Below are positions 3,421-59,135 of a DNA stretch of 64,000 nt, in pieces. The notes below the pieces were generated by a model, which was given only the letters and a program-made list of their open reading frames with translations, was not told where the DNA came from and did not search any database. Each line of letters begins with the position of its first letter. Position 1 is the first letter of the stretch. Source of the DNA: Endozoicomonas numazuensis (GTDB lineage Bacteria > Pseudomonadota > Gammaproteobacteria > Pseudomonadales > Endozoicomonadaceae); assembly GCF_000722635.1 (NCBI RefSeq), contig NZ_JOKH01000002.1, positions 582,670 through 646,669 of the forward strand, read 5' to 3'. A program made the translations under genes and the position numbers.

Positions 3421-4652
3421 CAGGGCAAACGCATGAACATTTCTTGATCAGTACTTGTTGAAATTTTTCTTGCCACACCCCCGTTGTTCTGGCAAATTCT
3501 CACTTTTTATGCCCTTTCAGTCTCTTCTCGAACGTACTCACCAGTTGCCTGATCCTCGGCAACCTGCCAAATGCACCCATATCATGGGAGAAGTCGTTTT
3601 CATGACCATTGTTGGTCTCCTCTGTGGTGCAGACGACTGGGATAGTATTGTCCAGTGCGCTGAGTGTAAAGAAGACTGGCTTAGCAAGTACCTCAAGCTG
3701 CCGGGAGGCATCCCATCTCACGATACATTCAATCGGATTTACGCACTTCTTGATCCAGCTGAATTTCGTGACCTGTTTACTCGCTGGGTTAAGGATATGC
3801 TGATTGATACACCCTTATCGGGCGTTGTTGCCATTGATGGCAAGACAGTTCGAGGCTCTCGAGATAAATCATCCAGTGCCATTCATATGGTTAATGCCTG
3901 GTCCACAGAAGCAGGTATCAGTCTCGGGCAGTATAAAGTCGATAGCAAGTCTAATGAGATCACAGCTGTGCCCGAGCTACTGGATAAACTGGCCATTGAA
4001 GGTTGTACGGTGACTGCTGATGCCATGAGCTGCCAAAAGCGTATTGCCAGCAAAATTCTCAAGGTCAAAGCAGATTATCTGTTAGCTGTGAAAAACAACC
4101 AGCGCAAACTTTATGGTGAACTGGATCGCTACTTTTCTACTTATTGGGAGAATAATCCGACCGATAGCCCAGATCAGTCTCAATATAGTGAGCAGCGCGA
4201 CAGTAAACATGGTCGCAAGGAACACCGCCGTTGCTGGGTTCTTACTGACCTGTCATCTTGTCCTCAAGCAACTCAATGGCAGGCCAAGACGATTGCAGCC
4301 GTTCAGTTGGATTGTACAAAAGGGAACAAGGGGCGAAGCTTCATTCGCTACTTCATCAGTAGTAAGGTCATGACCGCAGAAGAAGTCCTACTGGCGACAC
4401 GACTCCACTGGCAAGTGGAGAATAACTTGCATTGGGTGTTGGATGTTGCATTTTCAGAAGATCAGTCGCGAGTCAGAAGGGGCAATGCTGCTGAAAACCT
4501 GGCTATAGCAAGGCAAGTAGCTCTCAACCTTCTAAAACAGGATACCTCAATCAAGCTTGGTATAAAGAACAAACGCAAAACGTGTGGCTGGAGTGAGGAA
4601 TACCTCTGTCACATCCTCGGATTGATCAAATAACGTTCATGCGTTTACCCTG
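3421..4652 (+). mobile_element. ISAs1-family insertion sequence, complete
   Basis: A 1232-bp element with 18-bp terminal inverted repeats CAGGGCAAACGCATGAAC (3421-3438) and the complement at 4635-4652, with one mismatch. It is flanked by a perfect 10-bp target duplication CATTCGCACC at 3411-3420 and 4653-4662. The duplication size and transposase type fit the ISAs1 family. Confidence 0.93.
3509..4633 (+). CDS. ISAs1-family transposase
   Basis: 374 residues from ATG 3509 (MPFQSLLE); an earlier in-frame start at 3455 is possible. The DDE_Tnp_ISAs1 pattern is clear: N-terminal PDPRQPAKCTH, then VVAIDGKTVRGSRD (first Asp), TVTADAMSCQK (second Asp) and HWQVENNLHWVLDVAFSEDQ (final Glu). Full length, with intact inverted repeats, so the element may be mobile. 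The stop lies 1 bp before the right inverted repeat. Confidence 0.93.
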   Translation: MPFQSLLERTHQLPDPRQPAKCTHIMGEVVFMTIVGLLCGADDWDSIVQCAECKEDWLSKYLKLPGGIPSHDTFNRIYALLDPAEFRDLFTRWVKDMLIDTPLSGVVAIDGKTVRGSRDKSSSAIHMVNAWSTEAGISLGQYKVDSKSNEITAVPELLDKLAIEGCTVTADAMSCQKRIASKILKVKADYLLAVKNNQRKLYGELDRYFSTYWENNPTDSPDQSQYSEQRDSKHGRKEHRRCWVLTDLSSCPQATQWQAKTIAAVQLDCTKGNKGRSFIRYFISSKVMTAEEVLLATRLHWQVENNLHWVLDVAFSEDQSRVRRGNAAENLAIARQVALNLLKQDTSIKLGIKNKRKTCGWSEEYLCHILGLIK

Positions 4653-4912
4653 CATTCGCACCCAGTATCACTTGTTCAACCATTAATTTAGTTCCTGGAG
4701 ACAACTCTGCAATCAAGCTTTCAGTGTTATTCCATTCAGTTCGATTGGCTAATATATAATAGCTTCTTGCAACAGTATCTATTTTCCAAAGTTTCACGTT
4801 GTCTACAAGCGCCAAACAATGCCCATCGAACTTACTTCGATAAACTTTAGGTGCGCTGATACAAGCACTTAAAAGCAATGTCAGAATCACAACAAATATT
4901 GATTTCATGCTG

Positions 4913-5185
4913 TTACCTATTTGCACTTTGTGACCAAATTTGTTGATAACCTGTTACAGTATCAATTCGATGGTTTGCATTGACCCAATCAAACCAACTA
5001 GGGCTATTTACAGCTTCAGTATTTGGCCTTATGACAGAGAGCGCTCCACCTCCACAGATAATATCTAAATTTCCACAATAGCTTTTGCTACCTGCTGCAG
5101 GATATGCAAAACCAGGTAAAGATAATGTCGTTGCTCCACTGATCCAGCCTTGCCTGTACAAATTATTGACTCTAGCTGCACCTGA
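4913..5185 (-). pseudogene. orphan Rhs toxin-tip remnant 1
   Basis: Encodes NSGAARVNNLYRQGWISGATT and AYPAAGSKSYCGNLDIICGGGAL, about 75% identical by eye to the last 80 residues of the Rhs protein. It then has its own ending with NHRIDTVTGYQQIW. Homology begins just after the GHSLG serine motif, so the nucleophile is lost, and starts two bases past the stop of the preceding lipoprotein. The stop lies 4 bp before the start of the split lipoprotein. Confidence 0.8.
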
Positions 5186-5186
5186 G

Positions 5187-5630
5187 TTATATCTCACATG
5201 GAGAAAGAAAATTGCTATCAATAGCTATTTGATTTGGATCTAAAGTACAGCCCTTAATCCACTTTGGAAGAGGGTGGTACGATGCGCAGGTGGGAATATC
5301 AACTATTTTCCCTTGGTGAAGTCCATCCAACACCTTGAGTTGAATTCTTAAAAACGATCTCGATCCGTTTCCTCCTTTAATTACTCTCTGTACCTCTAAA
5401 CTTGTGTTTTTACCAATGACACCTACTGGACTATTATCATCGGTAAGTTCCGGCTTATCCTGATAACCTAATAAAAAGGGTCCCACGTATACGTTGTCAT
5501 AAGTAGACCACAGTTCCGTTTCGAAATTAGTTCTGTAACAACTACCATCAATTTTACTAGCCTTGATAGTGCTGCAACCCAAAATTTGAGATGCTACGAG
5601 AACTAGAAATAAAGTTCTAAATGTATTCAT
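5187..5630 (-). CDS. small lipoprotein, candidate immunity protein 1
   Basis: ATG 5630; 147 residues. Signal peptide MNTFRTLFLVLVASQILGC with lipobox LGC. The mature part has DGSCYRTNFETELWSTYDNVYVGP, FLRIQLKVLDGLHQGKIVDIPTC and PKWIKGC, shared with the lipoproteins at 2572-3021 and 3208-4908. It lies 77 bp after the Rhs stop on the same strand, the usual place for an immunity gene. A function against the Rhs lipase-like tip is inferred from position and repetition, not from a known family. Confidence 0.78.
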   Translation of the reverse strand: MNTFRTLFLVLVASQILGCSTIKASKIDGSCYRTNFETELWSTYDNVYVGPFLLGYQDKPELTDDNSPVGVIGKNTSLEVQRVIKGGNGSRSFLRIQLKVLDGLHQGKIVDIPTCASYHPLPKWIKGCTLDPNQIAIDSNFLSPCEI

Positions 5631-22746: not shown

Positions 22747-22767
22747 AAAGGCACAGGCAGTGCCTTT
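22747..22767. terminator. Bidirectional hairpin between gspF and prophage
   Basis: AAAGGCAC-AGGCA-GTGCCTTT, perfect 8-bp arms, with short T-runs on both sides. It separates the convergent gspF (stop 22746) and the last prophage gene (stop 22766). It marks the left limit of the prophage. Confidence 0.65.
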
Positions 22768-29631: not shown

Positions 29632-29660
29632 CCATAGCTCCTCTTAAATATCTCCTGTCA

Positions 29661-30044
29661 TCATTCAACGGTCAGTAGTCTGATAACCAAACTGTATTGA
29701 TAATCGTCACCCGGGTAGGCATAAGGCAGAACCTGTCGTGCTTCGATGGGAGAGCCTGCACTGCGATCAAAGATCACTGAATATTGCCTTAAATCGGGAA
29801 GGGTCAGGGTCATAACCTTATTGGCGACCTGGCTCAATGCAAGCAGGTTGACCACCACTGATCTTGAGACCCAGGCAGCGTCCTCACCGCCACTCAGCTC
29901 GATAGGGCGGCCATAGCTTTTGCTTTGCTCCTGGATCAATAGCCCCCCGGTCAGGCTACGATCCTGGCTTTGTACCACCGGATTCCAGTCGAACTCATTG
30001 ATCCATAACAAATCATCGGGCAGTGTGATGCTATCCAGTGTCAT
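29661..30044 (-). CDS. phage minor tail protein
   Basis: 127 residues (MTLDSITLPDDLLWINEFDWNPVVQSQDRSLTGG..QEQSKSYGRPIELSGG..YSVIFDR). Its ATG overlaps the tape-measure stop (TGATG). Resembles short distal-tail/gpM-like proteins that follow the tape measure; family assignment is by position. Confidence 0.65.
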   Translation of the reverse strand: MTLDSITLPDDLLWINEFDWNPVVQSQDRSLTGGLLIQEQSKSYGRPIELSGGEDAAWVSRSVVVNLLALSQVANKVMTLTLPDLRQYSVIFDRSAGSPIEARQVLPYAYPGDDYQYSLVIRLLTVE

Positions 30045-33000
30045 CAGGTTGACCTCATACCAGCATTTTTCAGAGCTTCCAGCAGACGCCTTTCGTCACC
30101 GGGCTTCACGCCAATATCCACTTGGCCACCTGGGTATTCCAGACGAATGACCTTATCAGGAGTGGCTCTTGTTCGGGCTGTAGACCCTTGTGTGGATTGG
30201 CGCTGGGATTGAGTATGCAAGTTTTCCTGACGAGCTTTTTCTTCTCTTTCTCTCCTGGCCGCTTCCTGCTCCTGCTGTTTACGTCTGGACTTGGTTTCTG
30301 CGTAGATAGACTGGTTCAGGCTCAAGGCTTTTTTCAGGTTGCTGATGGATTCGTTATCGCCCTGTTGTTTGGCAATGGTCAGCTGTGCTTCCAGTTCCTG
30401 TTTCCGTGCTTCAAACCGACGACGGTCAATGTCTTCTTGCTTGCCTTGCAGACGATCCAGTTCATCCTGCAGTCCTTCCAAGGTACCTCGAGTGCTGTCA
30501 GCCAAGCGTTCCATACTCGATTCGGCCTGTTCGATGGCACTGTTCAGTCGATCCAGGTCTTGCTGATTGAGCAGGTTCATAGAATCGGCAGCGGCCCTGC
30601 CCTGGCTGGCCAGAGTCTCCGCCGAAATCGAGCCGTCCTGGTAACCTTGCACCAGTTCTTCCAGAGCAATCTTTTGCTCATAGAACTCCGCTTTTACGGC
30701 AGCGGCATTGGTGGCGGTGTTCTGCATCCACCGGCCCAGACCAGTCACATCTGTGCCCACATTAGCCGTCTGTAGCTGGTGCAGCTCTTCTGTGGTTTCT
30801 GCCAGTGCAGCCTTGAGCTGACCAATCTCCCCCAGCGTATCGGTAGTGTCGATTTGAGTCGCTCCCTGCATGGTCAGAAAGGTGTCTTCTGCCTGGGCAC
30901 TCAGACCGTAGAGTTCGGCGGTGATGCTATTGTAAAAGCCCACCAGTCCATCTAATGAGCTGGAGGTCTGGGCTGCCCCTGTCGCTTGCTTGTCACCCGC
31001 TTCTTCTACCGCATCTCCCAGTGACCGAGCCGCATCAGCCGCAGACTCTGCGCCTTCTTCCAGCTCAGCCAGCTTCTGTCGACTGGCTTCCAGGGCTTCG
31101 TTGTATTGTTCCTGGGTCAGGGTGCCATCAGCAAAAGCCTGAGAGAGTTGCACAGCCAAGTCAGACAGCTCGGTACGTGTTTCTGCGGTGTTGATCTGCT
31201 TCAGGGCGTCAGCGGCATCGATGAAGGCTTTTTTGGCGGTCTGGGCTGATTGGACATAGACGGAGTTCAATTTGACCACATCCTGCTCGATGGACTCTGT
31301 CGTTTTCTGGCTCTCGTTGCGGATGGCCTGCTGGATCGTTTGGCTGGATTGAAGCATCGCTTCACCCAGTGTCTGCCAGCTGTTGTTAATGTCCTGCACA
31401 TCTTCTTTTACGGCTTCCCTGAAGCCCGAAGACACCGCTTTCAGCGATTCACTGAAGGACTGGAGTTTCTGAGCTGATTCTGTCGCACCAAACGTATTAA
31501 ACAGACTGCTTAGCCCTTCCGAAACAGAAGAGAGCACTTGGCTGAATACCAGGCCAAAGGCTTTCACCGCCAGAGTAAAACCATTAAAGAACAACTGGAC
31601 AGTATTACCCGTCAAAGTGAATGTATTGTTGAGACTGGCCAGGGTTGAGGCAATACGCTGGCTGGCAGACTGAATACTGGCCACCACACCTTCAAACGTC
31701 AGCCCGGTAAAGTTGGCCTTGATCGCCTCACCCATCTGCACAAAGGCATCACTGATGGATTGCGCCAGTTTCGACAAACGCCCATCTTCAGACATAACAC
31801 TGATCTGGTCTGAAATGCTTTTAAGCTGATCCTTAGCGTAAGACAGAGCACCACTCTGGGCGACTTCATCCAGAAAGTTCTTCCAGCTGTCTTGCAGGTT
31901 GCTGACATAACCGGACAACAGGGACATATTTTCAGCGGCAGCCCCCGACGAACTCTTGCCAATCTCATCAATCAATAGGGCAATAGTATCCCTGCCCAAC
32001 TTACCAGCGGAGGAAAGCTTCTGCAGCTCCTGAACATTTTTCCCCGTGGCTTTTTCCAGCAGCTCCCACACTGGAACACCCCGCTCAACCAGCTGCAGAA
32101 TCTCTTCCCCCTGTAGCTTCTGCTTGGCCCAGGCCTGCCCCACTGCCAGCGAAATCCCATTCAGGCGTTCCATGCCACCACCCAGCTTGGAAGCCTGATC
32201 CACCATGGCCTGCATACTGCCGTCCATGGGATCAAGCCCGAACGCCTTCAGTCGAACAAAAGCATCCGCCACTTGCTCCAGCTGGTAAGGGGTCTCACGA
32301 GTGAACTGCTTGATCCATTGAATGGCTTGCTCCCCTTCAGCCACCGAGCCCATCACAGCATTGAGCTGAACTCGCAAGCGTTCAAACTGATCGCCCGTCC
32401 CCAGTAGTCCCTGAATGGCACGTTTGACGGTATACAAGCCAACACTGGCAGCTACCAAAGCCCCTAACCGCTGCGACAGACGACCCATACTGCCTGATGC
32501 TCGATCCGCATCTCGAGCCAACTGTCGGAAGCCAGAGCGTTTAAATGAGCGAGCAGAGGTTTTCGCCCTGGCATCCACTTTTTGCAAGACTGAGGCCGTC
32601 TCTTTCAGCTCCTTTTGCAGGCGCTGCTGCTGGGCAGAAAGATTACGACTGGAAAGACCCGCCTGTTCCAGACTGCTGCGCAACCCGGCCAGTTTCTGGC
32701 GCTGAGCCTGATAAGCACGACTGGCTGACACCACAGTCTTACGCGCAGACTCCAGGGAACGCTGAAGGGATCGGGAAGGCTTCTCAGTCTGCTGAAACTC
32801 CCTCGCCAGCTTCTCAACCCTAGCCTCCGCTTCCCGGTAGGCTTTGCCTGCATCTCGAACGCCTTCTGTCTGTTTTTGAAAAGACGACAGCAAGCGATCT
32901 TGCTTTTGAAAGTCAGACAGTTTCTGTTTTAGGGTTTGGGCTTCTTTACGGAGGGATTCGAGGGAGGAGGCAGACTGGAGGACAGTTTTGGATAAGGTGT

Positions 33001-33049
33001 CTTTGGCTTTTAGTACCAGCCTCAGGGCAGATTCTTTGATTGAAGTCAT
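30044..33049 (-). CDS. phage tail tape measure protein
   Basis: About 1001 residues from ATG 33049 (GGAGGGAG upstream). Long N-terminal coiled coil (SLESLRKEAQTLKQKLSDFQKQ...), then the tape-measure domain with GDQFERLRVQLNAVMGSVAEGEQAIQWIKQFTRETPYQLEQVADAFVRLKAFGLDP, hydrophobic segments, and a Gln/Glu-rich C-terminal coiled coil. It sets tail length. Directly upstream one expects the gpG/gpGT chaperones, but the plus-strand module 33265-35320 lies there. Confidence 0.93.
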   Translation of the reverse strand: MTSIKESALRLVLKAKDTLSKTVLQSASSLESLRKEAQTLKQKLSDFQKQDRLLSSFQKQTEGVRDAGKAYREAEARVEKLAREFQQTEKPSRSLQRSLESARKTVVSASRAYQAQRQKLAGLRSSLEQAGLSSRNLSAQQQRLQKELKETASVLQKVDARAKTSARSFKRSGFRQLARDADRASGSMGRLSQRLGALVAASVGLYTVKRAIQGLLGTGDQFERLRVQLNAVMGSVAEGEQAIQWIKQFTRETPYQLEQVADAFVRLKAFGLDPMDGSMQAMVDQASKLGGGMERLNGISLAVGQAWAKQKLQGEEILQLVERGVPVWELLEKATGKNVQELQKLSSAGKLGRDTIALLIDEIGKSSSGAAAENMSLLSGYVSNLQDSWKNFLDEVAQSGALSYAKDQLKSISDQISVMSEDGRLSKLAQSISDAFVQMGEAIKANFTGLTFEGVVASIQSASQRIASTLASLNNTFTLTGNTVQLFFNGFTLAVKAFGLVFSQVLSSVSEGLSSLFNTFGATESAQKLQSFSESLKAVSSGFREAVKEDVQDINNSWQTLGEAMLQSSQTIQQAIRNESQKTTESIEQDVVKLNSVYVQSAQTAKKAFIDAADALKQINTAETRTELSDLAVQLSQAFADGTLTQEQYNEALEASRQKLAELEEGAESAADAARSLGDAVEEAGDKQATGAAQTSSSLDGLVGFYNSITAELYGLSAQAEDTFLTMQGATQIDTTDTLGEIGQLKAALAETTEELHQLQTANVGTDVTGLGRWMQNTATNAAAVKAEFYEQKIALEELVQGYQDGSISAETLASQGRAAADSMNLLNQQDLDRLNSAIEQAESSMERLADSTRGTLEGLQDELDRLQGKQEDIDRRRFEARKQELEAQLTIAKQQGDNESISNLKKALSLNQSIYAETKSRRKQQEQEAARREREEKARQENLHTQSQRQSTQGSTARTRATPDKVIRLEYPGGQVDIGVKPGDERRLLEALKNAGMRST

Positions 33050-33199
33050 CGCTCCCTCCTTAGCAAGAAAAGGCAATATTCATGGTGTTAAAGGTATGCT
33101 TAAATCGTGCGGAATATCTAATAGGTTCATTTGAGCCATAATAGCTGTTATACACACTCGTCAAAGCTGGCCAATCAGCTAGAAAACTTTCTATGATTC

Positions 33200-33264
33200 A
33201 AGTCATTGAACATTAAAAGTATGTCGTATAGAGTTACTGCACAGTAACTACTGATGACAGCAAA
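33200..33264 (+). promoter_or_regulatory. Promoter/operator of the inserted two-gene module
   Basis: TTGAAC (33206-33211) and TATAGA (33227-33232) are 15 bp apart, a short but possible sigma70 pair. A near-perfect 18-bp palindrome AGTTACTG-CA-CAGTAACT (33232-33249) overlaps the -10 edge and lies 15 bp before the ATG at 33265, well placed for repression. The rest of 33077-33199 contains no gene I can support. Confidence 0.45.
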
Positions 33265-34218
33265 ATGGGTGAAAAATCGAAAAAAATCGGGGAAATTGGA
33301 GAAAAAATAGTCGAAGAATTTTTCTCCATTATTGGATGGTTTGACCCTCTCTCAAATCAGCCCCTTGATTGCATGAACTCAAAAAAACATGCTCGATCAA
33401 GCTCGAAGAAGGGCTTGAGAGAGACTCACGGCATTGACCTTTTGTACAGCTATAAGAGTCAATTGGAAAGCAATACTGTCATTAGTGTACTTGCATCAGT
33501 AAAAAACTCTGACAACGCCTACAAGAACAATCCAAAAGCTGACTTTAAAAGTCATATTGAAGACTTAGCTCAGGCGCTAGAATGCTATCGAAACTCAGAA
33601 CTTAAATCTGAGCAAAAGCTTCAGTTCAATGGGGTTACAAAAGACAGAGACACAGGTGTTATATTTTGGCTTTCAAGTCATGATGATACTTATGATGATG
33701 TTGTTTCAAAGATAAATAATGTCCGCTTAGACTCTGACTTAGAATTTGATTGCATACATATTGTAGACAATAAACGGATTGACTTTGTTTATGATGTCAT
33801 GACATGGCTCAAGAGCGAGTTTAATGACAAAATTATAAACTATTACTATCCTGAAACGTCATTAAGTTATATTGATAAGTCAATAAAGCGATATGGAAAT
33901 ACCTTGCCTGTTGAATTTTTAACATCCCCCGTTCTTCCATTTATTATAAAAGATGAGAATCCAGAGAAAAACGATGTTTTCTGTATTGCAAGCATTGATG
34001 GGTTTGACAAAGACAGTTTAACCAGATTAATTCAGGCTGCAAGAGAGTATACTCACGAAGTAACATGTGATTATTTGTTCTTGTTCCCTAACTATGTTCC
34101 ATCTCAGCATGAACAATCTGTAATCAAAGCAAAACGTGTTTTTGATAAAGATATTTCAAAGCACATTACGGTTAAAAGTTTTCGACCAGATTACAGGAGT
34201 CTGAGTAATGGAAAATAA
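33265..34218 (+). CDS. GapS4a-like protein, PD-(D/E)XK-type nuclease candidate
   Basis: 317 residues, AT-rich codons unlike the neighbours. The N-terminus KIGEIGEKIVEEFFSIIGW followed by THGIDLLYSYKSQ and ISVLASVKNS gives the order of a PD-(D/E)XK fold: Glu13 in the first helix, Asp58 in GID, and Ser78-Val79-Lys80 in place of the usual (E/Q)xK. The overall pattern and the coupled second gene resemble the two-gene GapS4 anti-phage system as I remember it. The assignment is from memory of the family and needs a profile search. The stop overlaps the next gene by 11 bp. Confidence 0.65.
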   Translation: MGEKSKKIGEIGEKIVEEFFSIIGWFDPLSNQPLDCMNSKKHARSSSKKGLRETHGIDLLYSYKSQLESNTVISVLASVKNSDNAYKNNPKADFKSHIEDLAQALECYRNSELKSEQKLQFNGVTKDRDTGVIFWLSSHDDTYDDVVSKINNVRLDSDLEFDCIHIVDNKRIDFVYDVMTWLKSEFNDKIINYYYPETSLSYIDKSIKRYGNTLPVEFLTSPVLPFIIKDENPEKNDVFCIASIDGFDKDSLTRLIQAAREYTHEVTCDYLFLFPNYVPSQHEQSVIKAKRVFDKDISKHITVKSFRPDYRSLSNGK

Positions 34219-35320
34219 AGATGAGGTTCTATTACCTACAGGTGATTATTTACGTCAGTTGCTTGGCCAGTCAAAAGTAAAAGACAAAGAACTTAAAGAA
34301 TTTTTGAGAAATAGAGGGGTATTCACAGGCTCTAGTAAGAAAGATCATATTGGACCTATTCTAATTAAAACGGGAATGTCTCCCGATGAATATATAGACT
34401 TAAGAGATACTTATCGAACTAAAGAAGAAAGTACAAAATCAAAGAGTAGATCAATAAACTGGCAGTCAGAAAAGAATCTTATTGAATCTATTCCAAATGA
34501 GATCGACTATGAATCTCTACTAAATGATGCATTTGGTGTTTACCAATTATCAAACACTTCAGGATTCACTGCTGCTTCAGGAAATCCTGATCATATCTAT
34601 ATGGATTTTGAAATCACAAGAAATGACGCCATTCAAAACTGGGGGGAAAGTAGTTCTAAGCATAAAGGGAGAGTTGAGTTCAAAAAAGATGCTAAAACTA
34701 AAGTAGTGAGTATCTCAATGACTCATACTGCACCAGAGACTAAAGCATACGCAAATAAAGTAACAGATAATTTAGTTAGGCATTTTAAGGACACAGGTCA
34801 TATAGACCAAGAAGAAAAAATAAAAACAATAAAATTTAATGACTTTACAAATGAAAACCGTGTTAAATTCATGAATGAGTTAACTCAAAAGGTGTCTTAC
34901 TCATTCATAGATTTCTTAGACACTAAAGACATTCACTTTTCTCCAGATAACTTAATATCTAACCCTCCTAGTGATATTGTATGGATGAAAGATAAAATTG
35001 AAGACTTAAAAATAAAAGGAAAAGGTCTTCACTCAACATTTTTCGTTCAAGAGACCAAGTTCCACCCATTCATTCAAATCTTTGGTCTAACATGTGAGTA
35101 TAGTTTTGCAACACGCCTGTATTCTGGATCATGTAGAATATTATTTGAATTCTCTGACAAAGATGAAACAAATCAAAATTCAGAATTAACTCTAAATATC
35201 ACGATGCTAAAGCTAGATTTGAATGACTCTGGAGAGCCTAAATCCAAGGTTAAGAAAGACATTATAGATTCTCTCGAAAAGTTCAAAATGGAAGCCTACG
35301 ATAAGTTCAAACAATCGTAA
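34208..35320 (+). CDS. GapS4b-like partner protein
   Basis: 370 residues, AT-rich, ATG 34208 with AGGAG at 34196-34200 inside the previous gene. The N-terminal 70 residues (LLPTGDYLRQLLGQSKVKDKELKEFLRNRGVFTGSSKKDHIGPILIKTGMSPDEY) look like a SAP/HeH-type helical module. The rest is mixed alpha/beta without catalytic motifs that I recognise. Translation is coupled to the nuclease-like gene. Together they form a two-gene unit that is likely a defence or exclusion system carried by the prophage. Confidence 0.65.
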   Translation: MENKDEVLLPTGDYLRQLLGQSKVKDKELKEFLRNRGVFTGSSKKDHIGPILIKTGMSPDEYIDLRDTYRTKEESTKSKSRSINWQSEKNLIESIPNEIDYESLLNDAFGVYQLSNTSGFTAASGNPDHIYMDFEITRNDAIQNWGESSSKHKGRVEFKKDAKTKVVSISMTHTAPETKAYANKVTDNLVRHFKDTGHIDQEEKIKTIKFNDFTNENRVKFMNELTQKVSYSFIDFLDTKDIHFSPDNLISNPPSDIVWMKDKIEDLKIKGKGLHSTFFVQETKFHPFIQIFGLTCEYSFATRLYSGSCRILFEFSDKDETNQNSELTLNITMLKLDLNDSGEPKSKVKKDIIDSLEKFKMEAYDKFKQS

Positions 35321-35396
35321 GGATAGTAAAAATCCACAGAGGACAGTGACTTCGGTGCTGCCGCTGAAATTAGTATTATATAACTCAAATTTCTGA

Positions 35397-35416
35397 GGCT
35401 CAGACCCTACTGAGCC
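35397..35416. other. Hairpin over the tail-tube stop codon
   Basis: GGCTCAG-ACCCTA-CTGAGCC, perfect 7-bp stem with the minus-strand stop codon (35407-35409) in the loop region. No T-run on either side, so it may be an inefficient terminator or a stabilising 3-prime structure between the late genes and the inserted module. Confidence 0.4.
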
Positions 35417-36150
35417 AGATCCAGCTGCATAAACGAACTCAGCCCATTCCCCGAAATCGACGTATCCGCCAGCACATCCACTTGTAAAGGAATGCTGGCG
35501 AAGTCATCGGAGATAAAGCCCAGGTTCTGTACTGGTGAGAACTTCACCCGATGCACCCGGATGTTGAAGGGCAGACCTTCCTGGGCATCGTTCAACCCTT
35601 CCATAAACAGGGTAAATTCCCGTCCAGACTCTACCAGAGCCTGCACCATATTGGCCTTGAGCGGGGTGTAGCTGACCTTGATGCCCTGGTCGTCAATATC
35701 TCCGCCCTCAATGACCTGAATGCCGGATTTCATTAGTTCGTAGTCGTCGCCTTCTACCAGTGTGGCGTCCTGGCTGTCTTTTACGGTAATGGTTTGCTTC
35801 AGATCCGGTAGTCGCTTGAAGGGAATCAGCTCACCGGCTACACCATGGGTCGTCAGAGCTTCATCGGTGACCGGTGTAGTTGAGGCTGCGGTGACATTAC
35901 CTCTCAGGGCCAGGGAGATATTACTGGCAGTAAAGTCATGGGCCACCAGGTTGGCGGTAATGCCCGACACCCGGCTGATAACATTACGGTTTCCGCCACC
36001 GCCCAGATAGTTTTTCAGCTCTTTACGATCTTCTTCAAAACTGAAGTTAAATTCGCTGACATTGCCAATGGGTAACAGTGGAGCGGATTTGTCATAGGGC
36101 TGAATATGGATACTGCCTGCGCCGATAAAGCTGCGGTCGATAGTGGACAT
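35407..36150 (-). CDS. phage major tail (tube) protein
   Basis: 247 residues, ATG 36150 with AAGGAG upstream. Acidic beta-rich protein (GNVSEFNFSFEEDRKELKNYLGGGGNRNVISRVSGITANLVAHDF, ...LPFNIRVHRVKFSPVQNLGFISDDFASIPLQVDVLAD). This pattern, with an elongated central domain, is typical of gpV-like tube proteins. It follows gpU and is separated from the tape-measure gene by the inserted plus-strand module. Confidence 0.85.
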   Translation of the reverse strand: MSTIDRSFIGAGSIHIQPYDKSAPLLPIGNVSEFNFSFEEDRKELKNYLGGGGNRNVISRVSGITANLVAHDFTASNISLALRGNVTAASTTPVTDEALTTHGVAGELIPFKRLPDLKQTITVKDSQDATLVEGDDYELMKSGIQVIEGGDIDDQGIKVSYTPLKANMVQALVESGREFTLFMEGLNDAQEGLPFNIRVHRVKFSPVQNLGFISDDFASIPLQVDVLADTSISGNGLSSFMQLDLAQ

Positions 36151-36175
36151 AGGAATCTCCTTCCTTGAAGAGGAT

Positions 36176-36577
36176 TTAAAAGACGGTTTCGAGGGTCAGG
36201 GTGATATCTGCAAAAGACAATTGTCCCTGCCTGGGGGCGATATCAAATTGGGTTTCTGAGAAAGTCAGTTTTCGGCATTGCTCTGCCAGGGCTTTATCAC
36301 TGCTCAGGGCTTGCCGAATCGTTCTTGTAAACTCCAGCAAGGCATAAGTCGCCCGGTCATTGGTGGGCACTACAGCACTGAGATTAAAAAGCCACTGATC
36401 TTTACGACGACTGCCCTGCTGTTGCAGCTCGCTGATCGACTCCAGCTGCAGTAAGATGGCTGGCGGCTTCAGATCCTGCTCAACCCCGGTGGCAGCATAG
36501 CCCAGCAATACCTGGCTACACACTGTCTCCAGAACACCGACCAAAAGGCCAACCAATCGTTGTTCTGGATTAAGCAT
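36176..36577 (-). CDS. phage minor tail protein U-like (tail terminator)
   Basis: 133 residues. LVGLLVGVLETVCSQVLLGYAATGVEQDLKPPAILLQLESI and a closing GQLSFADITLTLETVF fit gpU-type tail completion proteins. Position between the gpZ-like and tube genes supports this. Start overlaps the upstream stop by 8 bp. Confidence 0.75.
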   Translation of the reverse strand: MLNPEQRLVGLLVGVLETVCSQVLLGYAATGVEQDLKPPAILLQLESISELQQQGSRRKDQWLFNLSAVVPTNDRATYALLEFTRTIRQALSSDKALAEQCRKLTFSETQFDIAPRQGQLSFADITLTLETVF

Positions 36578-55950: not shown

Positions 55951-56401
55951 ATTATCCGAACAGTCAAGCCTGGCAGCCAAGGTGGCGGCTATTCAGAAGA
56001 TGTCCACCAAGGCACTGCTGGAACTCTGGCCGAAACTCTATGGCACCGATGCGCCCAAGCTGAATAAACGACTGCTACGACAAAGATTATCCTTTCGGAT
56101 TCAGGAGCTGGAACTGGGGAGTCTTTCCGAGAAACACAAGAACCGATTGCAACGGTTGCAACAACCCTCTGCTAAAGACAAGCCTGTGCCCAAGGCCAGA
56201 GTCAACAAGCCACCAGCAGGCACCCGGATTACTAAAGAATATGAAGGGGAAACCCATGAGGTGATAGTCACCAAAGAGGGCTTTGAGTATCGAGGGCAGA
56301 TGTACAGGAGCTTGTCTGGGATCGCCAAGCTGATTACTGGAAGTCACTGGTCAGGGCCGGTGTTCTTTGGATTGAAAGGAAGCAGCCATGGCCAAAAGTA
56401 A
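55940..56401 (+). CDS. DUF2924 protein
   Basis: 153 residues from ATG 55940 (AGGAG upstream). LAAKVAAIQKMSTKALLELWPKLYGTDAPKLNKRLLRQRLSFRIQELELGSLS and later GTRITKEYEGETHEVIVTKEGFEYRGQMYRSLSGIAKLITGSHWSGPVFFGL are the DUF2924 signature. These genes are regularly found just before a serine recombinase, as here (14-bp overlap). Probable DNA-binding partner in integration. Confidence 0.93.
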   Translation: MKNELSEQSSLAAKVAAIQKMSTKALLELWPKLYGTDAPKLNKRLLRQRLSFRIQELELGSLSEKHKNRLQRLQQPSAKDKPVPKARVNKPPAGTRITKEYEGETHEVIVTKEGFEYRGQMYRSLSGIAKLITGSHWSGPVFFGLKGSSHGQK

Positions 56402-57731
56402 AAGTAAGATCAAGGACATCAAACGTTGCGCGGTCTACACCCGTAAATCTTCCGAGGAAGGGCTAGAGCAGGAATTCAATTCACTCCATGCCCAACGGGA
56501 GGCCGGAGAAGCCTACATCACTTCCCAGAAACAGGAAGGCTGGATTCTGGTGCCGGATGAGTACGACGATGGTGGCTTTTCCGGGGGCAATATGGAACGG
56601 CCTGCGCTTCAGCGACTGATGAAAGATGTTGAAGCCGGGAAGATTGATGTGGTGGTTGTTTATAAAGTCGACCGTCTCTCCAGATCACTGGCTGACTTTG
56701 CCCGGCTGGTGGAAGTGTTCGACAAGCACCAAGTTTCGTTCGTGGCGGTGACCCAACAGTTCAATACCACCAGCAGCATGGGACGGCTGACGTTAAACAT
56801 TCTACTGTCGTTTGCCCAGTTTGAACGGGAAGTGACTGGCGAACGAATCAGGGACAAGTTCCTGCTCTCCAAGAAGAAAGGCAAGTGGATGGGCGGTACG
56901 CCTCCATTGGGCTATGACGTGGTGGATCGCAAGCTGATTCCCAATGAAGGGGAAGCGGTGATTATCCGGGAAATCTTCAAGACCTTTATTGAAACCCGCT
57001 CCCAAATTGAAACCGCCGAGCGGATGAACGACATGGGTTTCCGCACCAAACGACTGCCTCGCAAGGACGGCAAAGTAGCCGGTAGTAAGAAGTTCACCCG
57101 CACCGCCATCTACAAGCTGCTGAAGAGCCGCCTCTATATTGGTGAGATCGGCCACAAGGGAGAATGGTATCCCGGAGAGCACAAAGCCCTCATCAAACTG
57201 GAGGTCTGGGCAAAGGTAGAGGCCATTCTTCAGGGCAACAGCTCAAACCGGCAAACAGACAGCCGACACAGGCGCAGCCCTTCGTTTCTGCGGGGTTTTC
57301 TGTTCGGACCAGAACAGGAAGCCCTGATACCCACGGCCACCCGCAGCAAGGGCAAACTCCACCGCTACTACGTCAGCAGCATGGCCCGGAAGCACGGTCA
57401 CAAACACTCACCCCTGCCTACAGTGCCTGCGAAAGAGATTGAGTTTCTGGTAGTGGAGCATCTCCGGGATTTACTGAAGCAACCGGAGATCATTTTCACC
57501 ACCTGGCAGATGCTAACGGATCAGGAAACGCTCAATGAAGATCAGGTCAGGGAAGCCCTGAACGATCTGTCGGATATCTGGAACCTGCTGTTTCCAGAAG
57601 AGCAGCGCCGTTTGATGAAACTGCTGGTCAGTCGTATAGATGTCCACCAGCAGGGCATCAGTATTCGCGTCAATCAGGAAGGGATACCCACCATTACTAA
57701 CGAGTTACAAGGAGAAGTGACATGGCCATAA
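56388..57731 (+). CDS. large serine recombinase (prophage integrase)
   Basis: 447 residues. Resolvase domain: CAVYTRKSSEEGLEQEFNSLHAQREAGEAYI with the nucleophile at Ser21, then VVYKVDRLSRSLADFARLVEVF and LTLNILLSFAQFEREVTGERIRDK. Recombinase domain: IREIFKTFIETRSQIETAERMNDMGFRTKR.. LLKSRLYIGEIGHKGEWYPGEHKALI. No four-Cys zinc ribbon is visible in the C-terminal part. Member of a conserved DUF2924-recombinase-HTH cassette. The homologous left copy is destroyed by an IS. Confidence 0.95.
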   Translation: MAKSKSKIKDIKRCAVYTRKSSEEGLEQEFNSLHAQREAGEAYITSQKQEGWILVPDEYDDGGFSGGNMERPALQRLMKDVEAGKIDVVVVYKVDRLSRSLADFARLVEVFDKHQVSFVAVTQQFNTTSSMGRLTLNILLSFAQFEREVTGERIRDKFLLSKKKGKWMGGTPPLGYDVVDRKLIPNEGEAVIIREIFKTFIETRSQIETAERMNDMGFRTKRLPRKDGKVAGSKKFTRTAIYKLLKSRLYIGEIGHKGEWYPGEHKALIKLEVWAKVEAILQGNSSNRQTDSRHRRSPSFLRGFLFGPEQEALIPTATRSKGKLHRYYVSSMARKHGHKHSPLPTVPAKEIEFLVVEHLRDLLKQPEIIFTTWQMLTDQETLNEDQVREALNDLSDIWNLLFPEEQRRLMKLLVSRIDVHQQGISIRVNQEGIPTITNELQGEVTWP

Positions 57732-59058: not shown

Positions 59059-59135
59059 TGGCGCACTCGGAAGGATTCGAACCTTCGACCGCTCGGTTCG
59101 TAGCCGAGTACTCTATCCAGCTGAGCTACGAGTGC
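59059..59135 (-). tRNA. tRNA-Arg (ACG), right copy
   Basis: 77 nt, identical to 2357-2433; anticodon loop CTACGAA. Lies 19 bp after tRNA-Ser on the same strand, so it is probably cotranscribed with it. Confidence 0.95.

Follow-up and report, generated by a model that had tools for sequence, protein, structure and literature searches.

The window analysed here is a stretch of 64,000 nucleotides from Endozoicomonas numazuensis (assembly GCF_000722635.1, contig NZ_JOKH01000002.1, positions 582,670 to 646,669 of the forward strand), and its subject is a pair of genes, gapS4a and gapS4b, carried within the tail operon of a prophage. gapS4a occupies positions 33265–34218 of the plus strand and encodes a protein of 317 residues, and gapS4b, on the same strand at 34208–35320, encodes one of 370 residues, the two genes overlapping by 11 nucleotides. 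When the gapS4ab segment was base-shuffled 300 times, the longest open stretch in any of the six frames was 153 codons. The neighbouring phage genes run on the minus strand: in phage gene order the major tail (tube) protein gene (35407–36150; phrog_807, E = 7.6e-60) comes before the pair and the tape-measure protein gene (30044–33076; PF20155, Pfam TMP_3, E = 1.9e-36, together with tail PHROGs) comes after it. We refer to the interval between them (33077–35406) as slot A. A preliminary description of the sequence had reported two overlapping plus-strand genes at this position, and its coordinates proved exact. The sharp difference in base composition that it reported was also evident, as gapS4a and gapS4b have GC contents of 0.353 and 0.327 (0.33 and 0.27 at third codon positions, GC3) compared with about 0.53 for their surroundings; the minus-strand phage genes around the pair range from 0.52 to 0.54, and eight other window genes, of phage and host, from 0.51 to 0.54 with GC3 values of 0.57 to 0.64.

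Both proteins were recognised over the full length of a dedicated NCBIfam hidden Markov model and above its curated cut-off. Protein 1 matched the GapS4a model NF047933 with 361.3 bits (cut-off 270, profile positions 1–302 of 302), and protein 2 matched the GapS4b model NF047934 with 409.4 bits (cut-off 300, profile positions 1–355 of 355). The identification as GapS4a and GapS4b that had been proposed from the sequence thus holds, and at the level of sequence the assignment of the pair to the GapS4 family appears close to certain. As a gene pair, it is a further member of an already known family. Searches of Pfam and PHROGs gave nothing significant for either protein, and PDB sequence searches with both gave nothing useful. 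Each gene is present in single copy in the genome (6.34 Mb, 31 contigs). The GAPS4 system, comprising GapS4a and GapS4b, reportedly goes back to work by Mahata et al. from 2024, and the founding system is said to sit in Gamma-Mobile-Trio islands. It has also reportedly been found that GAPS4 senses free DNA ends, which we have not used as evidence here.

Related prophages were found via the major tail protein, which was matched in 10 of 11 genomes of the genus, in 17 of 293 genomes of the order and at 10 loci in IMG/VR, two of these from the record of this genome. Slot A is often empty, measuring 8–78 bp, in relatives with a 72–85% identical tail protein (loci L008–L012, L014, L098–L101, L103 and L104), and there is no gene at this junction in Pseudomonas aeruginosa phage Haddon or in two Vibrio/Shewanella phages. 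In the nearest relatives, with tail proteins 89–93% identical, the slot is filled with unrelated cargo. Together with the contrast in composition, these empty or otherwise filled junctions bear out the proposal in the preliminary description that the pair is a transferred accessory element, or moron. We are highly confident that gapS4ab occupies the slot as cargo and is not structural, and consider it likely that it represents a GapS4 anti-phage module carried by the prophage between its tail-tube and tape-measure genes.

The cargo of slot A is diverse. A second prophage of the same genome (L036) has an AHH nuclease gene (PF14412, E = 2.3e-9), an Imm11-like gene (PF07791, E = 0.0065, under the cut-off) and a transposase gene, and L035 has a ThsB-like TIR gene (4832–5260, minus strand; PF08937, E = 1.2e-17) and a gene for a 207-residue protein (3733–4356, minus strand), with a look-alike in L038. 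L035 and L038 are two prophages of one genome, and their TIR and 207-residue genes form a possible defence pair. Elsewhere the slot holds ParE (PF05016) with a candidate antitoxin (L037), a single gene for a 188-residue protein without assigned function (L039), a YefM/ParE pair (L048 and its look-alike L052, in both of which the tail gene is broken), one antisense gene per prophage for similar proteins of 74–89 residues (L040–L043), small open reading frames (ORFs; L044), a transposase-like ORF, named by eye, with a 179-residue ORF (L102), or a gene annotated as a ricin-type lectin (Turba and Riah, both phages of P. aeruginosa). The Pfam scan covered one member per cargo type (L035 rather than L038, L048 rather than L052, and L042 rather than L040, L041 or L043) and excluded the L037 antitoxin candidate and the ORFs of L044 and L102. 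Like GapS4, most of this cargo runs against the direction of the late operon, the exceptions being that of L037 and L044, the L036 transposase, the 179-residue ORF of L102 and the lectins. At the empty junctions of L010, L011, L012 and L034 a terminator-like hairpin followed by T runs can be seen by eye, which may be why slot A tolerates inserts.

Gap lengths were compared along the late operon, counting a junction only where both gene ends aligned within 25 residues (n = 6 to 29 of 34 loci), with the window itself outside the counts. Gaps of at least 200 bp were found at the tail-tube/tape-measure junction in 16 of 28 loci, the remainder measuring 0–77 bp, and at the junction between genes g127 and g1186, which we call slot B, in 20 of 26. 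At the other seven junctions the corresponding counts were 0/23, 0/25, 1/26, 3/29, 1/26, 0/6 and 0/7. Loci with identical tail genes (L006/L036, L007/L039 and L100/L101) were counted twice; with the duplicates removed by hand, 14 of 25 loci, a set that includes two P. aeruginosa phages, had at least 200 bp in slot A. The late operon therefore has two variable junctions and seven that are nearly constant.

The wider distribution of GapS4 was examined with an alignment as query, which identified 17 loci among named genome contigs; a single-sequence scan of the same contigs matched none. These contigs include Enterovibrio, Shewanella, Aeromonas, Halomonas, Marinobacter, Capnocytophaga, Segatella, Flagellimonas and Arenibacter, and also one Desulfobacteraceae and one Desulfobulbaceae metagenome-assembled genome. 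Three further contigs were found in IMG/VR, and GapS4 was present on two of 72,556 plasmids, from Pantoea and Ewingella. The order gapS4a followed by gapS4b was seen in 21 of 23 loci (among which L004 and L061 seem to be one and the same contig), and the remaining two contigs stop inside gapS4a. An 11-nucleotide overlap like that in the window occurs in nine of 18 loci, and some overlap in 14 of 18. The gene order and overlap seen here are thus those of most GapS4 relatives, and the present pair differs in being carried antisense within the tail operon of a siphoviral-type prophage. When nine structural proteins of this phage were searched against the 23 loci, the tape measure alone gave a match, in L072 and L073. 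There GapS4 lies between tail-fibre-assembly-like and sheath-like ORFs, and in L074 it lies downstream of tail-fibre-like and umuDC-like ORFs, all of these ORFs being named by eye rather than by profile. Since these loci carry GapS4 in other phage-gene settings, prophages seem to have acquired it on more than one occasion and at different sites. Because GapS4 homologues are found on plasmids and other contigs, with 21 of the 23 loci giving no match to the structural queries, they are not simply tail genes.

Gene 1 had been described as having Glu13, Asp58 and Ser78-x-Lys80 in the order expected of a PD-(D/E)XK nuclease, with serine replacing the usual acidic third residue. All of these residues are present, and none of E10, E13, D58 (within the sequence THGID), S78 and K80 varies among the 18 aligned GapS4a sequences, comprising the window's own and 17 homologues (alignment A3, which leaves out L073, the truncated L068 and L071, the plasmid sequences and L004). 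The serine is therefore normal for the GapS4a family, and this part of the description needs amending, in that the replacement is no change peculiar to this copy. The idea that Ser78 marks a catalytically dead copy was rejected, as all 18 aligned sequences share the residue. Across the PD-(D/E)XK superfamily the acidic residue of the (D/E)xK motif is not universal; because Ser78 takes its place here, we describe GapS4a as PD-(D/E)XK-like.

The predicted structure of GapS4a (mean predicted local distance difference test score, pLDDT, 83.9) matches PD-(D/E)XK folds, in agreement with the fold first proposed. Its predicted core is alpha-beta-beta-beta-alpha-beta, with the Asp on strand 2 and the x-Lys on strand 3. 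Acetyl-CoA carboxylase entries that headed the Foldseek list were discounted because of root-mean-square deviations of 14–20. From motif and model together, GapS4a is likely to be a metal-dependent nuclease. Residues 168–308 are predicted to be similar to chain E of RNA polymerases and to EndoMS, on the basis of which the protein may contain two nuclease-like folds. GapS4a shares its predicted core and its Glu, Asp and x-Lys residues with other PD-(D/E)XK nucleases of defence systems (McrBC, SduA, Card1/Can2 and Upx), and differs from them in Ser78, found in 18 of 18 sequences, and in the region resembling EndoMS and RNA polymerase chain E.

GapS4b is predicted to consist of a two-lobed body, formed by residues 72–366, and a poorly modelled helical N-terminus. 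The body matches RdgC and Iml3 in structure searches; phosphoglucomutase, KA1 and plant PR-10 structures match mainly one of the lobes, and neither RexA nor SAP structures are among the best 50 matches. The SAP/HeH-like module with which gene 2 was said to start could not be confirmed, as the model shows the initial ~75 residues as short helices at pLDDT values under 60, and SAP and HeH are not among the six Pfam families matched at E ≤ 1 by any of 16 GapS4b members (alignment A4, without L057, which is split over two pieces, L073, L074, the truncated L068 and L071, the plasmids and L004). The available text on the RexA protein of phage lambda describes a prophage exclusion protein that shares the RdgC/Iml3 fold and works with the membrane protein RexB (PMC11077077). 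GapS4b is thus predicted to resemble E. coli RdgC and Iml3 by fold, and its link to RexA would be through that shared fold; where the partner of RexA is, in that account, a membrane protein, that of GapS4b is nuclease-like, and GapS4b also has an additional region at its N-terminus. That GapS4b is an RdgC/RexA-like DNA clamp acting as a sensor is, on the strength of the model, a tentative suggestion.

The genes sit in a prophage that IMG/VR predicts, as UViG 2574179790_000002, to extend over positions 22766–58638 of the window (by coordinate arithmetic); the IMG/VR provirus holds the same sequence, with GapS4a 100% identical. Around gapS4ab are genes for portal, protease, head decoration, capsid, neck, both terminase subunits and tail proteins, and the phage region also encodes a primase/helicase, a Sak4-like annealing protein and, at 56388–57731 on the plus strand, a serine recombinase with Resolvase and Recombinase Pfam domains. 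Most of the late structural genes tested are open and have phage-family matches, with one 99-residue protein unmatched. A search for att sites between the two prophage ends found no shared word longer than 10 bp. Identical (77/77) tRNA-Arg(ACG) genes lie towards each end of the window, at 2357–2433 and 59059–59135.

Slot B of this prophage (29632–29660, 29 bp) is empty. In L039 it contains an AHH nuclease/Imm11-like pair, with Imm11 just under the cut-off. Slot A of L036 houses a pair of this kind, suggesting that a module may lodge in one slot or the other. The length of slot-B gaps overstates cargo, since those of L046, L100 and L102 have no ORF of at least 60 residues. Other occupants of slot B are an enoyl-CoA hydratase-like gene (L014), a MerR-methyltransferase gene (L104), a C2H2 zinc-finger gene (L008, 9695–10312, minus strand; PF00096, E = 1.3e-7), which has a eukaryote-like domain unusual in phage, and a gene with a leukocidin/hemolysin family match and a weak ricin-type lectin match under the cut-off (L009, 14433–16325, plus strand). 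A family of 159–168 residues ending in DLEGSP(Y/F)W recurs in slot B of L035, L037 and L044, and its L035 member, the sole one scanned, had no Pfam match.

Considering the known family and the accessory slot together, gapS4ab probably helps to protect the host cell from competing viruses. The opposite orientation and separate composition of the pair suggest that it would be transcribed in the lysogen from a promoter of its own, against the direction of the late operon. GapS4b, if clamp-like as its predicted fold suggests, would recognise the DNA of an invading phage, perhaps one of its ends or an intermediate of its replication or packaging, and GapS4a, judging from its motif and predicted fold, would then cut DNA and stop the infection. 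A more specific version appears rather unlikely at present, namely that GapS4b forms a ring of RexA/RdgC type on DNA, perhaps at ends exposed by phage that is entering or replicating, that licenses GapS4a, and that the junction is a dedicated, mostly antisense cartridge slot in which entire defence, toxin-antitoxin and toxin-immunity modules are swapped. Were it true, GapS4 would be related by fold to lambda Rex exclusion, as a cousin equipped with a nuclease.

A number of results weigh against the reading of gapS4ab as an anti-phage cargo module with a nuclease and a clamp-like sensor. PADLOC 2023, from which the family is possibly lacking, matched neither protein. The family is rare: the class yielded GapS4a in two of 369 genomes and the phylum GapS4b in one of 398, this genome being counted in both, and GapS4a was unmatched among 50,697 phage records. 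All 18 aligned GapS4a sequences depart from the canonical (D/E)xK motif in lacking its acidic residue, and a Foldseek search of GapS4a against the PDB returned nothing below E = 0.001. For the link to RdgC, the GapS4b model has a mean pLDDT of just 73.3, the best PDB match (E = 1.8e-3) was to an unrelated protein, and hhalign comparison of 16 GapS4b with 11 RdgC sequences gave a probability of 0.3%; with no kinship at the level of sequence profiles, GapS4b was not filed as RdgC. Upstream of gapS4a there is one weak promoter-like match (33168–33197, 9/12), and the region 32900–36300 has 12 promoter-like sites against a shuffled mean of 8.9 (standard deviation 3.2) and two terminator-like sites against 2.5 after shuffling, both counts being close to what shuffled sequence yields.

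The lack of a strong promoter is also what might be expected if the pair were a decayed or silent passenger, that is, a genuine GapS4 insertion, now without function, in a prophage that is itself defective, and tail genes are indeed broken or missing in several other prophages of the genus (for example L045, L046 and L048–L052). However, neither gapS4 reading frame is interrupted or shortened and the invariant residues are kept, most of the tested late structural genes remain open, and the prophage encodes a serine recombinase. We regard this explanation as unlikely, and an active anti-phage function in this strain, as far as sequence can tell, as probable. A role in stabilising the prophage, as an addiction module of toxin-antitoxin-like or anti-plasmid type, in place of an anti-phage one is less likely still: a putative nuclease with a translationally coupled partner would suit such a role, and slot A elsewhere carries ParE with a candidate antitoxin or a YefM/ParE pair, but neither protein is small or antitoxin-like, and NCBI names both families antiphage, a name that we take as given.

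The least probable explanation by far is that gapS4ab are structural or assembly genes, for instance substitutes for the tail-assembly chaperones frequently encoded between tail tube and tape measure. Co-oriented genes do occur at this junction in some more distant relatives (two each in F10 and LESphi3, and others in JBD25, QH16 and Suso), one of those in LESphi3 being annotated as tail assembly protein E and that of Suso as a tape measure chaperone. The GapS4 genes, in contrast, lie on the opposite strand, differ in composition and have homologues on plasmids, and we rejected this explanation on account of the unrelated cargo or empty 8–78 bp sites in closer relatives, with Haddon and the two Vibrio/Shewanella phages likewise lacking a gene there. 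Because the junctions of nearer relatives are empty or otherwise filled, there is also no sign, at sequence level, that GapS4 displaced a co-oriented assembly gene in this lineage.

Carriage of GapS4 as prophage cargo can be compared with known sites of this kind. HK97 gp15 reportedly lies just before the tape-measure gene and is, like gapS4ab, an accessory defence gene encoded by a prophage. Tab and Tai are accessory genes of this kind too, at different sites: Tab of JBD26 lies between terminase genes (PMC10884400) and Tai mostly upstream of the packaging module, though also in 'novel hotspots' (PMC11364771). A GAPS1-like protein, of another GAPS type, is mentioned for a Klebsiella prophage in the accessible part of the Phold paper. 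The portion of Rousset et al. (2022; PMC9122126) consulted describes hotspots of P2-like phages between gpA and gpQ, and others in P4-like satellites, next to cos and near the integrase; its main text contains none of the terms 'tape measure', 'tail tube' and 'major tail'. As far as those accounts go, the P2/P4-like hotspots are likewise small high-turnover loci that hold defence modules between conserved phage genes, whereas the slot described here is inside the late tail operon and its cargo is mostly antisense. No description of a tail-tube/tape-measure cargo slot was found in the literature searched, which was mostly without subscription journals, and the slot has perhaps been described elsewhere.

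With this finding, GapS4 is located within prophages, and the tail-tube/tape-measure junction emerges as a site where the comparison of related prophages may reveal further defence genes. If the resemblance of GapS4b to RdgC and RexA holds, it would suggest a testable sensing step for GapS4 and, through the fold, would connect the system with the long-standing problem of the mechanism of lambda Rex.
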